Of a stretch of 64,000 nucleotides of DNA, positions 2,685-11,267 are shown in pieces. This DNA is from Bacteroidota bacterium (GTDB taxonomy: Bacteria > Bacteroidota > Bacteroidia > Chitinophagales > LD1). The stretch covers positions 1 through 64,000 of the forward strand of contig JAFDYN010000006.1 of NCBI GenBank assembly GCA_018267385.1. The letters are read 5' to 3'. A model generated the notes under the pieces. It was not told where the DNA came from. It made no database searches and saw only the letters and a list, made by a program, of their open reading frames with translations. The position numbers and the translations under genes were made by a program. How positions within the stretch are numbered: position 1 is the first letter of the stretch; every line of letters starts with the position of its first letter.

Positions 2685-2860
2685 CGTCATTCCGAAAAAA
2701 ATCCCGTGAAAAATAAGTGTGATATTTTTGAAGGAATCCCAGCCTCACCGGGGCCGATACCTCACTTATTGCCATTGTTGAGTTCGGGGTTCCTTCTGTT
2801 TATGCCGCTCGTTTTTTACTGTTTGAAACCCCGAGGCTTCGGGACGGGATGAGGTGCGTG
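2685..2860. repeat. MITE-like repeat element, copy 1 (degenerate right end)
   Basis: Begins with CGTCATTCCGAAA and matches copy 2 (3300-3461) almost base for base over the first 60 bases, up to AAGGAATCCCAGCC. The middle then diverges, but both copies keep a TTCCTTC..GTTTAT core and end near GTGCGTG. The right inverted terminal repeat seen in copy 2 is replaced here by a CCCGAGGCTTCGGGACG hairpin (2830-2846), a 17-mer that recurs at 59148-59164. Confidence 0.7.
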
Positions 2861-2873
2861 AGTGGGCTAAGGC

Positions 2874-2915
2874 TGTTTCCTGTTTCCGTTTCCTACCTAA
2901 CGGAAACAGGAAACA
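2874..2915. repeat. perfect hairpin repeat 1 (TGTTTCC words)
   Basis: 17-bp perfect stem TGTTTCCTGTTTCCGTT (2874-2890) with its reverse complement at 2899-2915 and an 8-nt loop. There is no T-run, so it is unlikely to be a plain terminator. It shares its GTTTCC/GTTCCC word structure with hairpins at 3478-3523 and 4358-4399, and more loosely with 42718-42764. Confidence 0.85.
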
Positions 2916-2967
2916 TATCCGAGGGCGATAGAGTACATAAACGCGGATAGTATTATATATTCATAAA

Positions 2968-3261
2968 GTGAAAAGAGGTGGCTATACATATATTATTACC
3001 AATAAAAGACACTCGGTGCTCTACACAGGTGTCACAGCTGACCTGCGCAGCAGAATGCACGATTACAAGACTAAGCGTAACCCCAAGAGCTTTGCTACCA
3101 GATATAACTGTGATATACTAGTATATTATATACACTTCACACATATCGAAGAAGCGATCGCTGAAGAAAACCGTATCAAGCAATTAAGCAGAGCAAAGAA
3201 GCTGGATCTCATTTTTGCGATGAATCCCCTTTGGAAAGACCTATACGACACCCTGGATTGA
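2968..3261 (+). CDS. small single-domain GIY-YIG endonuclease
   Basis: 97-aa protein with a GTG start. The GIY-YIG core is clear: GGYTYIITN (first motif, GGY-YII form), LYTGVTADLRSRM (second motif with the catalytic Arg), and later the Glu-containing helix EEAIAEENRIKQL. It is the length of stand-alone GIY-YIG proteins (UPF0213/YhbQ-like). It sits alone, opposite in strand to its neighbours and exactly between two composite repeats (2685-2915 and 3300-3523). Its target is unknown. Association with the repeats suggests a role in their mobility, which is inference only. Confidence 0.9.
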   Translation: MKRGGYTYIITNKRHSVLYTGVTADLRSRMHDYKTKRNPKSFATRYNCDILVYYIHFTHIEEAIAEENRIKQLSRAKKLDLIFAMNPLWKDLYDTLD

Positions 3262-3299
3262 AGTACAAACAAGTTCGTTTTTTCTCCAAAAAAAGAGAT

Positions 3300-3461
3300 C
3301 GTCATTCCGAAAAAATTCCCGTGAAAATAAGTGTGATATTTTTGAAGGAATCCCAGCCACAAAAAAGGCAGGTATACCGCTCTTACACATTCTTGAGGTT
3401 TGGGATTCCTTCAGTTTTATATCGCATATTTTTTATTGATTGAAAAACTTTCGGAATGACG
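3300..3461. repeat. MITE-like repeat element, copy 2 (intact inverted ends)
   Basis: 162-bp element with 13-bp perfect terminal inverted repeats: CGTCATTCCGAAA (3300-3312) and TTTCGGAATGACG (3449-3461). The first 59 bases repeat those of copy 1 at 2685. No open reading frame of its own. Followed, as in copy 1, by about 16 bases and then a hairpin. Confidence 0.8.
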
Positions 3462-3477
3462 TGCGTGGATGGGATTT

Positions 3478-3523
3478 CTTGTTCCCCGTTCCTGTTTCCT
3501 AGTAAACGGGAACAGGGAACAAG
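3478..3523. repeat. hairpin repeat 2 (GTTCCC words)
   Basis: 20-bp stem, CTTGTTCCCCGTTCCTGTTT (3478-3497) against 3504-3523, with two G-U pairs in RNA and a 6-nt loop. It lies 13 bases beyond the stop codon of the unknown gene at 3537-4325. Hairpin 3 at 4358-4399 stands on that gene's other side with the same arm sequence. Confidence 0.85.
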
Positions 3524-3536
3524 GTTTGCGAAGGCG

Positions 3537-4325
3537 TCAGAGCTGATAGAAAGACATAATGCGGCCAGTAATTTCAATTTCAATCGCAAATTTGTCTCCG
3601 TTGTATTCAATAGCAGGTCTACCTTTTTTTCCTCGCAAGTACTTTGATAAGGTGCCATATCTACCACTGGTTGATTGTGCAATTCTTACTTCTAGAAAAT
3701 GATTTTTTATATGCTCCTCTTCTTGGAGCAAAACCTTTTTAAGAAGTTGAAAAATCAATTCGTGTTTATAACTAAAAAAGGTTCGTGGTTTGTTATTCGG
3801 ATTTCCAAATTTAGTTTCTTCGACATGTCTAACATAGATATGAATATATCTTTCAAAGTCGAGGAATATGCACACAAACCAATGTATAAATGTGACTTGG
3901 TCAAATTCTGCTGCTATTTTTAGGAGCGTTTTGTAATCAGATATATAATGGCTGTTGATCCTCTTTTCGTTATCTACTGTCCGGAGTATCTCTTTACGGA
4001 TTATTGCTTTTCTTGCTTGATGGCGTAACGATAGCCAGTTGAAATAATATTCAGCTTCTTCATCTGAGACGGCAATACCTAAATCAAATTTGAAATGAAC
4101 AACTAATGCGTAGACTGAAGGTATGCTTACTAGTTCCTCTAAATATTCTTGTAATGATTCTTGATTCAAAACGTACTTAGCAGCCAAATACCTGTACAAA
4201 TCTTCTTTAGTTATTTCGTAAGATTCTTTGATGTTTCTATCAATAAGGTAGATATGTGCGCACAGCGCCATTTCGACATCATATTTGAGTCGACTGGGGA
4301 TTGAAAAAGGAAGATTTTTCTTCAT
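3537..4325 (-). CDS. AT-rich unknown protein in hairpin-flanked cassette
   Basis: 262-aa protein that I do not recognise. It is predicted mostly helical and soluble, with no signal peptide or membrane segment. It is rich in aromatic residues and charge, with a stretch FIHWFVCIFLDFERYIHIYV near residues 145-164 and a basic C-terminal section (TLSKYLRGKKGRPAIEY). Its DNA is visibly more AT-rich than the primase and ATPase genes on either side, which suggests recent acquisition. It is bracketed by hairpins 2 and 3. No catalytic motif was found; a selfish or defence-type cargo is possible but unsupported. Confidence 0.75.
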   Translation of the reverse strand: MKKNLPFSIPSRLKYDVEMALCAHIYLIDRNIKESYEITKEDLYRYLAAKYVLNQESLQEYLEELVSIPSVYALVVHFKFDLGIAVSDEEAEYYFNWLSLRHQARKAIIRKEILRTVDNEKRINSHYISDYKTLLKIAAEFDQVTFIHWFVCIFLDFERYIHIYVRHVEETKFGNPNNKPRTFFSYKHELIFQLLKKVLLQEEEHIKNHFLEVRIAQSTSGRYGTLSKYLRGKKGRPAIEYNGDKFAIEIEITGRIMSFYQL

Positions 4326-4357
4326 TACGGTTCTTTATATAAAGATATAATAAGTTC

Positions 4358-4399
4358 TGTTCCCTGTTCCCGTTTATCAGCAAACAGGAACAGGGAACA
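4358..4399. repeat. hairpin repeat 3 (GTTCCC words)
   Basis: 18-bp stem TGTTCCCTGTTCCCGTTT (4358-4375) with 4382-4399, one mismatch, 6-nt loop. It lies between the ATPase stop codon (4406) and the start of the unknown gene (4325). Its right arm AACAGGGAACAAG is identical to that of hairpin 2. Confidence 0.85.
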
Positions 4400-4405
4400 A
4401 GAAGA

Positions 4406-7682: not shown

Positions 7683-10600
7683 ATGACAAAGCACTCTACT
7701 CCCATCAAGATGTACCTGCTGGTACTCGTGCTGCTATCGCTCTGCACAGCCTATGCACAGGCTCCGCAGCGGATCAACTATCAGGCCGTAGTGCGCGATG
7801 CGACGGGCGCAGTGAGCGCCAATGCGCAGGTCTCAGTGCGGTTTTCCATACATGATGGCAGCCCCGGAGGTACCATCGTCTATCAGGAGGTGCACAGTGT
7901 CACTACCAATCAGTTTGGCCTCATGACCGTGGCCATAGGCAGCGGACAGACAGGAGGCAGCCTCAGCCAGGTGGCCTGGGGCAGTGGTGATAAATACCTG
8001 GAGACAGATGTAGACCCTGCAGGCGGGAGCAACTATATTATCATGGGTACCTCGCAGCTGATGAGTGTGCCTTATGCGCTCTTTGCCGGCAGCGCGATCA
8101 ATGCTGCTACCGGGCCGACAGGTGCCACGGGTGCCACCGGCGCAGCAGGAGCGCAGGGAGCGACAGGAGCCGACGGGCCTACAGGAGCTACAGGTAGTAC
8201 AGGCGCTACAGGTAGTGCCGGCCCTGCCGGAGCCACAGGTGCCACAGGCAATGATGGCGCTACAGGCCCACAGGGCAGCACCGGCGCCACAGGAGCTACG
8301 GGTGCAGGCGTGACCGGGCCTACGGGTAGTATCGGTGCCACCGGCAGTGATGGTGCTACGGGACCCCAGGGTGCTACCGGACCCACAGGGCTGGCAGCAG
8401 CAGACGGCGCGACAGGAGCTACAGGCCCTACAGGAAATGATGGACCTACAGGTGCACAAGGTGCCACTGGCAATAACGGTGCAACAGGTTTACAAGGTAT
8501 AACAGGACCTACAGGCGCACAGGGTGCCACAGGTTTGCAAGGTGCAACGGGTTTACAAGGTATAACAGGACCTACAGGTGCGCAAGGAGCTACAGGTGCT
8601 ACCGGGAATAATGGCGCGACAGGTCTTCAAGGCGCAACGGGAGCTACGGGTCTGCAAGGTTTAACAGGACCTACAGGTGCCCAAGGCGCTACAGGTGCGC
8701 AGGGAGCTACTGGCAATGACGGTGCCACAGGTCTGCAAGGTGCAACGGGCAATGATGGTGCAACGGGTTTACAAGGTATAACAGGACCTACAGGAGCAAC
8801 TGGTGCACAAGGAGCTACAGGTCTGCAAGGTATAACAGGTCCTACAGGAGCACAAGGCGCTACAGGTGCGCAGGGAGCTACTGGCAATGACGGCGGTGCT
8901 GGACCTATAGGCGCACCGGGACCTACCGGCAATGACGGACCTGCAGGAGCCACAGGACCGCAAGGTGCAAGGGGTGCCACAGGAGCTACAGGTGCCACCG
9001 GTACAGGTACTACAGGCCCGGCAGGTAGTACAGGACCTACCGGACCGATCGGTCTCACAGGGCCTACAGGCGCCGCTGTCACCGGTCCTACGGGGGCTAC
9101 AGGCCTCACAGGGCCTACAGGCAGCCTGGATAGCGGCACTGCCATAGGCAATACGACCTACTGGGATGGTACCAGGTGGGTGGTCAACTCCAATAACATT
9201 TTCAATAAAGGTGATAGCGTAGGTATCGGCACATCCACTCCTCACGCCAAACTGGAAATAGCCAATGCAGATATGCTGGTCAATGGCATCACCGTAGGCA
9301 AAGGGCACTATACCGCGACCTTTAATACGCAATACAGCACTGCGGTAGGCCTGCAGGCGCTGGCCGTCAATAATAACGGCACACTCAATACGGCTGTAGG
9401 GTATATAGCTCTGGGTGCAAACAGGGATGGATTTCAGAACGTAGGCGTAGGGCCATATGCGCTCAGCCAGAACTCCGATGGCTACAGCAATGTATCTATA
9501 GGCGCCTATACGATGGTGAATAATTTCATAGGACGTGAGAATACGGCAGTAGGTACAGGCGCACTCTACTACAACTATAACGCTATAGGCAACACAGCCA
9601 TAGGCAGCAGGACCATGCAGGCCAACTACAACGGACTCGTGAATACGGCTGTAGGCGCGGGCGCACTCATGAACAATGTAGACGGCATAGGCAATACCGC
9701 CGTAGGTGTCAATGCTGCTGACTCATCGACCAATGGCTGGTATATCACCTCCATAGGCTATGAGTCCGGCCCCGGTGCAGACAATCTTTTCAACGCGACT
9801 GCTATCGGAGCCTTCGCTACGGTCAATACAGACAATAGCCTCGTACTGGGCAATAATGTCAATGTAGGCATCGGCACCAGTGAGCCATCATCACTGCTGG
9901 ATGTAGCAGGCAATATCAAAGCACAAACTCTGCAACTGACCAATGGCGCCACGGACGGCTACCTGCTCACCAGTGATACCAGCGGCAATGCCACCTGGCA
10001 AAAGAGCAAACTGCCTGATGGTACCAATCCGGGAGAGATGCTCTACTGGGATGGCAGCCAGTGGGTCACCATACCGGTGGGTGCCAGCGGCGCTACGCTG
10101 ACCTTCTGCTATGGCATACCTACCTGGGGCACCTGTCCTGCCCACATACCTATCCTGCAGACAGGCAGCATGTCTGCCATCTCTATGACGGGAGCTACCG
10201 CCGCCGGTACTGTGGTGTATGATGGTACAGTATCTGTCACCGTCCGCGGTGTCTGCTACAGCACCTCGCCCAATCCTACCATAGCTGACCTGCATACCAC
10301 CAATGGTACCGGCACGGGGACATTCAGTAGTCCTATCACCGGCCTGGCCGGCAATACGACCTACTATGTGCGCGCCTATGCCACCAATAGCCAGGGTACA
10401 GGCTATGGCGACCAGGTCAGCTTTGTGACGGCCAATCCCGTGGTACCTACTCTGGTGTATGCTTCATCAGCTACTACTACGAGTACTACGGTAGCCTACA
10501 CAGCAAAAATATCCAGCGATGGTGGCGCTGCGATCACAGCACGCGGCCTATGCTATGGCACCTCTGCCAATCCTACGATAACAGGATCTCACACTACCGC

Positions 10601-11267
10601 CGGCTCAGGTACGGGTTCATTTACCTCGCTGATCGCCGGCCTGACAGTCAATACCACCTATCACATCAGGCCCTATGCTACCAATAGTGTGGGCACAGGC
10701 TATGGTCCGGATTCTATTGTGACCACTCCATATTTCTGGCTGGGTGAGGCATATGGCGGCGGAGTGGTATTCTACATAGATGGCTCCGGCCAGCATGGCC
10801 TGATAGCCGCCGCCGCAGACCAGTCTGCAGGATCACCATGGCAGTCTGCTACAGGTGCTTATGGCTATGGCATCAATGCTAATAACACGGCCACCGGTGC
10901 AGCCAATACGAGCGCTATCATGGCATTCTGGAGTACAGCTACTGATACCTTTGCCGCTAAGGTGGCGAGCAACTACCGCGGCGGAGGATACACAGACTGG
11001 TACCTGCCTGCGAGCATAGAGCTGCAGAATCTGATGAAAGTAAAAGCTGTGGTCGGAGGGTTCGCTACAGGCACTTACTACTGGAGCTCCAGCAAGGAGC
11101 CTGCTACAGTGGCCTACGGCAATATCAATACCACGAGCCTTACGATATACGAAGCTATCTGTATCGCCACCGAGCCCAGGCGCCCCGGTACCAGAGGTAC
11201 ACCTACCAGTGTATTTGTCGGTTCGCCGTCTACGTCTTATCGCATCAGGGCCATCAGGGCCTTCTAG
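7683..11267 (+). CDS. collagen-like / beta-roll surface protein with DUF1566-type C-terminus
   Basis: 1194-aa exported protein. Domains in order: signal peptide (1-25, ending TAYAQ); an N-terminal module of about 115 residues ([29 protein letters not shown]) shared with the giant at 24409; a collagen-like Gly-X-Thr/Ala/Gln array (about 144-481); YadA-head-like beta-roll repeats (about 550-690, [10 protein letters not shown] and NTAIGSRTM types); two fibronectin-like modules (about 823-1015, [13 protein letters not shown] and [13 protein letters not shown]); and a DUF1566/Lcl-like C-terminal domain ([34 protein letters not shown]). No T9SS sorting domain is visible. Probably a trimeric cell-surface fibre or adhesin. 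Divergent from the TPR regulator; a -7-like TACTTTTG lies at 7635-7642. Confidence 0.9.
8112..9124 (+). repeat. collagen-like GXY coding repeat array
   Basis: About 1 kb of in-frame glycine-triplet repeats inside the surface protein gene. The central part has near-identical DNA blocks, including three exact 29-bp copies (8487-8515, 8550-8578, 8766-8794) and a 41-bp perfect direct repeat (8682-8722 and 8853-8893). Spacings of 63, 216 and 171 bases are all multiples of three. Confidence 0.9.

Follow-up and report, generated by a model that had tools for sequence, protein, structure and literature searches.

A single-domain GIY-YIG nuclease gene enclosed by inverted CGTC-tagged repeats in Bacteroidota and other bacteria

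Introduction

Does a small nuclease gene that lies between two similar repeats act on those repeats, or has it merely come to rest among them? The question is raised by a locus in the window, the 64,000-nucleotide stretch of Bacteroidota DNA analyzed here, which is the start of a contig in a genome of 4.55 Mb. The closest public match to this genome is Bacteroidetes bacterium UBA1941. A preliminary description of the locus proposed that a single-domain GIY-YIG gene is coupled to palindromic repeats, in a relationship resembling that of RAYT and REP.

GIY-YIG is a known homing-endonuclease fold. The Ssn proteins of Neisseria (2025) reportedly cut single-stranded DNA site-specifically, have a cognate repeat in many genomic copies, and are said to affect natural transformation through a repeat. 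A superfamily of repeats is also relevant to the locus. CGTC-tagged REPs, which include dRS3 of Neisseria and RPE-4 and RPE-6 of Rickettsia, occur in several phyla and were described as having no dedicated transposase, in a paper that names no enzyme gene associated with them (Di Nocera et al. 2013, PMC3733652).

Results

The GIY-YIG gene (2968..3261, + strand) has a GTG start and encodes a single-domain protein of 97 aa, and the genes adjoining it are on the - strand. It is preceded by one CGTC-tagged element (copy 1, 2685..2854, + strand) and followed by another (copy 2, 3300..3461, + strand); elements at the locus are 162-170 bp long. Copy 2, of 162 bp, has the perfect 13-bp terminal inverted repeats previously attributed to it, with CGTCATTCCGAAA at 3300 (+) and at 3449-3461 (-). 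Copy 1 has an intact left end, CGTCATTCCGAAA at 2685 (+), and a degenerate right end, ...GGGATGAGG, with a small insertion and a CCTC tag (- strand) in place of CGTC. The two copies match far beyond chance (E 3.5e-26). Each is followed by a hairpin: a GTTTCC-word hairpin with 17-bp perfect arms (2874..2917) stands between copy 1 and the nuclease gene, and a GTTCC hairpin (3478..3523; DNA fold -15.6 kcal/mol, z -6.6) follows copy 2. Element, spacer and hairpin together form two direct copies, 2685-2917 and 3300-3523, which agree in 175 of 238 alignment columns (74% identity). The alignment, coordinates and strands thus bear out the description of a gene lying between two direct composite copies and oriented opposite to its neighbors.

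The composite itself did not hold up as a mobile unit. In the rest of the genome, a single hairpin site (at 11.3-11.4 kb of contig C27) lies less than 500 bp from an element copy, and the hairpins otherwise stand apart from the elements. The GTTCC hairpins form strong structures but look like a separate repeat. The hairpin at 3478..3523 forms a 46-nt inverted repeat (91%) with a third GTTCC hairpin at 4358..4401, and the pair brackets an ORF of 262 aa that lacks any known domain (3537..4325, - strand). This ORF has no relative among 29 family genomes, and the syntenic place in UBA1941 has one hairpin and lacks the ORF; it is probably a separate insertion and not part of the nuclease unit. The bracketed interval (3478-4401) suggests a second kind of hairpin-flanked insertion. 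Neither the element nor the nuclease nor the 262-aa ORF had a match in searches of Rfam, PHROGs and PADLOC. Elsewhere in the window, positions 7683-11267 encode a 1194-aa protein with a long collagen-like repeat region.

A whole-genome search with copy 2 found at least five further copies of the element on contigs C26 and C27, plus fragments, none of which has a GIY-YIG gene beside it. Since the element is dispersed without the gene in its own genome, the window locus alone proves nothing, and the relatives decide.

The 97-aa ORF matches PF01541 with E 1.7e-14 and 54 bits (cut-off 22.6), and Y8, Y19, G21, R29, E67 and N86 are invariant among 26 homologues, as expected of a member of the GIY-YIG superfamily. 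An AlphaFold model shows a confident GIY-YIG fold (pLDDT 94.6), with UPF0213 1zg2 as the best PDB match (Foldseek, E 8e-4), and the protein retains its catalytic residues. The fold is the same as that of UPF0213/YhbQ-like proteins and the UvrC N-terminal domain. Unlike the nuclease gene, the UvrC-type genes of the window genome, used as a negative control, lack flanking inverted repeats in so far as they can be scored, which was the case for one gene (inverted-repeat score 8, equal to the control median), the ORF of the other running off its locus.

We turn to the relatives, of which 80 Bacteroidota loci were fetched with a profile of 11 relatives, with selection on the protein alone and flanks of up to 10 kb, and scanned for the end motif YGTCATTNCGA. 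Motif density is 1.8 and 1.3 per 500 bp in the bins flanking the gene, compared to approximately 0.05 elsewhere; within 500 bp of the gene, CGTC ends have 30-40 times the density seen at greater distances. The scan placed an end within 600 bp of the gene in 62 of the 80 loci. The strict motif is absent from the other 18, of which at least four (L105, L111, L143 and L144) show variants by eye. Most commonly, one end lies 50-115 bp upstream of the gene and an inverted one 45-85 bp downstream. The gene is thus enclosed in most relatives by one inverted CGTC pair, and the earlier picture of a gene lying between two complete elements does not generalize.

The enclosure is also evident without reference to the motif. 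When inverted repeats with a score of at least 12 were counted, they spanned 76% of the GIY-YIG genes, compared to 3.3% of 824 control ORFs from the same loci (p 6e-33). Spanning inverted repeats were likewise found in 20 of 28 loci from class genomes, which formed a second set. Gene and repeats are also associated at the level of whole genomes: in lists transcribed by hand, with the 12 best first-look candidates scored per genome, a strong homologue was present in 45 of 62 repeat-rich genomes (at least 20 motif copies) compared to 70 of the other 333 among 395 class genomes (odds ratio 9.9, p 8e-15). One class genome, G069, has 636 copies of CGTCATTNCGA and no GIY-YIG profile match; its enzyme may have been lost or may be divergent, or another mobilizer may be at work.

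Homologues are found well beyond the Bacteroidota. Plasmid records searched by tblastn yielded matches in Sinorhizobium, Azospirillum, Sphingobium, Rhizobium, Shinella, Novosphingobium, Neisseria, Planktothrix, Aeromonas, Photobacterium and Spirosoma. At nearly all of the 18 plasmid-record loci, CGTC or TGTC hairpins in inverted orientation enclose the gene, with an inner sequence that varies by lineage, and spanning inverted repeats were scored in 15. Inverted repeats of the CGTC/TGTC type flank homologues in Azospirillum, Sinorhizobium, Shinella, Neorhizobium, Rhizobium, Sphingobium, Novosphingobium, Neisseria, Aeromonas, Planktothrix and Spirosoma, and the enclosed homologues span the Alpha-, Beta- and Gammaproteobacteria and one cyanobacterium. 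Repeats are weak or one-sided at some homologues, namely those of Rhizobium K1/93, R. tumorigenes and Photobacterium. The N. gonorrhoeae homologue, which we take to be a member of the Ssn family, is 37% identical to the window protein over 87 aa (E 7e-19), and its flanks carry CGTCATTCCCGC repeats.

The type of repeat follows the clade of the protein. Repeat sequence correlates with protein identity (Mantel r 0.42, p 2e-4), a result inflated by shared descent, and within the window family the repeat types, as assigned by eye, change four times on the protein tree, which is the minimum, compared to 13.1 times when shuffled. Several clades with distinct repeats can also share a single genome. 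In genome G025, three GIY-YIG clades are paired with three different repeats: CGTCATTCCGAG, TGTCAYCCTGAGCGAAAGCGAAGGRTCT, which has 33-44-bp perfect ends, and GAAGCAATCTTCAACTT. Because these clade-specific repeats occur in one genome, shared host ancestry cannot explain the differences among them. Other small GIY-YIG clades proved unsuitable as a negative control, since they too lie between TGTC-type repeats, and became evidence instead. For the same reason, the impression given by the strict motif scan, that non-RGG loci are without the motif, was dropped.

Comparison of empty and filled sites, as proposed in the preliminary description, revealed absence sites in Azospirillum, Sphingobium and Shinella. 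In Azospirillum lipoferum 4B, the nuclease unit separates sufB from sufC; in three relatives these two genes adjoin each other and the unit is absent. The whole block is present in Shinella WSC3-e, compared to Shinella H4-D48 and S. oryzae, which are without it. In neither Azospirillum nor Shinella do the absence sites contain a REP. At one Sphingobium site, strain TomTYG46 has REP-gene-REP, a solo CGTC hairpin stands in TomTYG64 and TomTYG74, and TomTYG72 has neither. Target-site duplications were not found at the compared insertion sites, where boundaries are blurred. A unit between sufB and sufC was seen both in Azospirillum and in Shinella PSBB067, in the latter with suf genes judged by sequence likeness alone, and the two insertions are apparently independent.

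Gene-less elements vary as well. The element at C26:37166 is present in genome G023 and missing in G024. The UBA1941 match of window copy 2 occupies the equivalent position but is inverted, and the element at C27:11782 is inverted in place in UBA1941 between conserved flanks. In Mucilaginibacter and kin, the nuclease gene occurs in both orientations at one syntenic place (L105 and L144 compared to L143 and L155). Some copies of the nuclease gene are broken, as would be expected if it is mobile. A different arrangement was seen at L009 (G000:C8, 2027-2793), where another single-domain GIY-YIG gene is present in two tandem copies, the second with an internal stop. Each copy is bounded by a repeated sequence resembling a tRNA 3' end (T-arm GGTCCCAAGTTCGAATCTTGGTACC), in which ARAGORN called no complete tRNA, and a tyrosine recombinase gene lies beside them.

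Discussion

Our analysis indicates that the nuclease and the CGTC repeats are very probably coupled. The preliminary description had named two observations that would refute such a coupling: wide dispersal of the repeats with no enrichment near GIY-YIG genes, and conservation of the gene at this place without the repeats. Most copies in the window genome are indeed far from the gene, but comparison across genomes shows the repeats heavily enriched next to it, and neither objection holds. The proposed RAYT/REP-like coupling is thus strongly supported by the comparative data, whereas the hairpin and two-element details are not.

The repeats themselves resemble known ones. Like the CGTC-tagged REPs (PMC3733652), the window element has a CGTC, TGTC or CCTC tag, a stem starting with AT and a CCA-like tail, forms inverted dimers and is dispersed between genes, and the two share several host genera. 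Both halves of copy 2 read CGTC-ATTCC...GGAAT-CCCA. However, the outer stem of the window element is 5 bp long and encloses approximately 40 nt, in contrast to the 8-9-bp stem and 4-5-nt loop of CGTC-tagged REPs, and the half-units of the element fold weakly (z -0.6 to -1.1). The window element is a CGTC-tagged long-loop relative that falls outside strict membership of the CGTC-tagged REPs.

The locus likewise resembles RAYT/REPtron systems, whose Y1 transposases are IS200/IS605-like: in both, inverted palindromic repeats flank the gene of a small nuclease, and further copies of the repeats are dispersed in the genome without it. The enzymes and tags differ: HUH/Y1 and GTAG REPs in the one, GIY-YIG and CGTC in the other. 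A RAYT acting in trans was considered as the mobilizer and rejected, as no CGTC ends were found near the five Y1/RAYT-type transposase genes of the window genome.

We favor as probable the explanation that the 97-aa GIY-YIG protein is the cognate enzyme of the CGTC ends and mobilizes, much as RAYT does, both its own unit and the gene-less copies. The autonomous unit would consist of a CGTC end, the nuclease gene and an inverted CGTC end. The elements of about 160 bp would be non-autonomous derivatives with both ends and no gene, like the REPs or MITEs that accompany RAYT. The nuclease probably recognizes the tagged, stem-forming end in a single-stranded state, such as replication or DNA uptake could produce, and would cut at the CGTC tag. 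Rejoining or repair could then flip the unit in place, copy it, or place it at a new intergenic site. We infer the cutting of single strands at the tag, and also that movement is due to the nuclease and not to some host process; judging from comparisons of sequence, it probably moves or flips the repeats.

Alternatively, the repeats may be recognition sites that serve the protein, as a site-specific single-strand nuclease, for another purpose, such as modulating DNA uptake, recombination or defense, while host replication slippage or another transposase multiplies them. We consider this unlikely, although it is the strongest of the competing explanations. In its favor, the Neisseria homologue, with its 37% identity and CGTCATTCCCGC flanks, is reported to affect natural transformation, and Y1-type transposases are present in the window genome. 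However, the gene is enclosed by inverted ends and is present or absent as a block, and so looks like a mobile unit, and the Y1 transposase loci are without CGTC ends.

It is less likely still that the gene encodes a homing endonuclease of the free-standing kind and invaded pre-existing REPs serving as its cleavage sites, the REPs being independent of it. The fold would fit, as would the finding of both orientations of the gene at a single syntenic place and the two Sphingobium strains with a solo hairpin exactly at the REP-gene-REP site of a third; the hairpin, however, is equally explicable as a deletion product. The absence sites without a REP in Azospirillum and Shinella argue against homing, as does the enrichment of the gene in repeat-rich genomes. 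Coincidence at tolerant intergenic regions that collect small mobile genes and repeats could account for the elements dispersed away from any GIY-YIG gene in the window genome, but it is highly improbable and already contradicted by the roughly 30-fold local enrichment, the inverted geometry, the rate of 3.3% in control ORFs and a repeat type that follows the clade.

The pairing of a GIY-YIG protein with such repeats had been thought undescribed, and this is doubtful given the 2025 report of Ssn and its cognate genomic repeat. Ssn proteins are reportedly single-domain GIY-YIG proteins of approximately 95 aa with a cognate multi-copy sequence, and the window locus shows both homology to the Neisseria protein and a repeat beside the gene. 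The role reported for Ssn is in natural transformation, whereas our analysis concerns the structure of the unit, its inversion in place and the link to the whole CGTC superfamily, which as far as we can tell are new. No papers joining GIY-YIG with REPs, MITEs, dRS3 or Rickettsia palindromes were found in the literature searched.

If the preferred explanation, a GIY-YIG enzyme that mobilizes CGTC-tagged units, is extended, single-domain GIY-YIG proteins could be the missing mobilizer of the entire CGTC-tagged REP superfamily. We put this forward tentatively, at somewhat less than even confidence, as a second, non-HUH class of "REPtron" present in several phyla, in which units would move by flipping in place and repeat specificity would evolve with the enzyme. 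A cognate GIY-YIG partner, if true, would supply the CGTC-tagged REPs with the dedicated enzyme that they were described as lacking. It would also mean two separate origins of REP-type domestication or parasitism, with unrelated nuclease folds. Finally, hundreds of natural enzyme-target pairs would, if the pairing is true, make it possible to read the sequence specificity of small nucleases.
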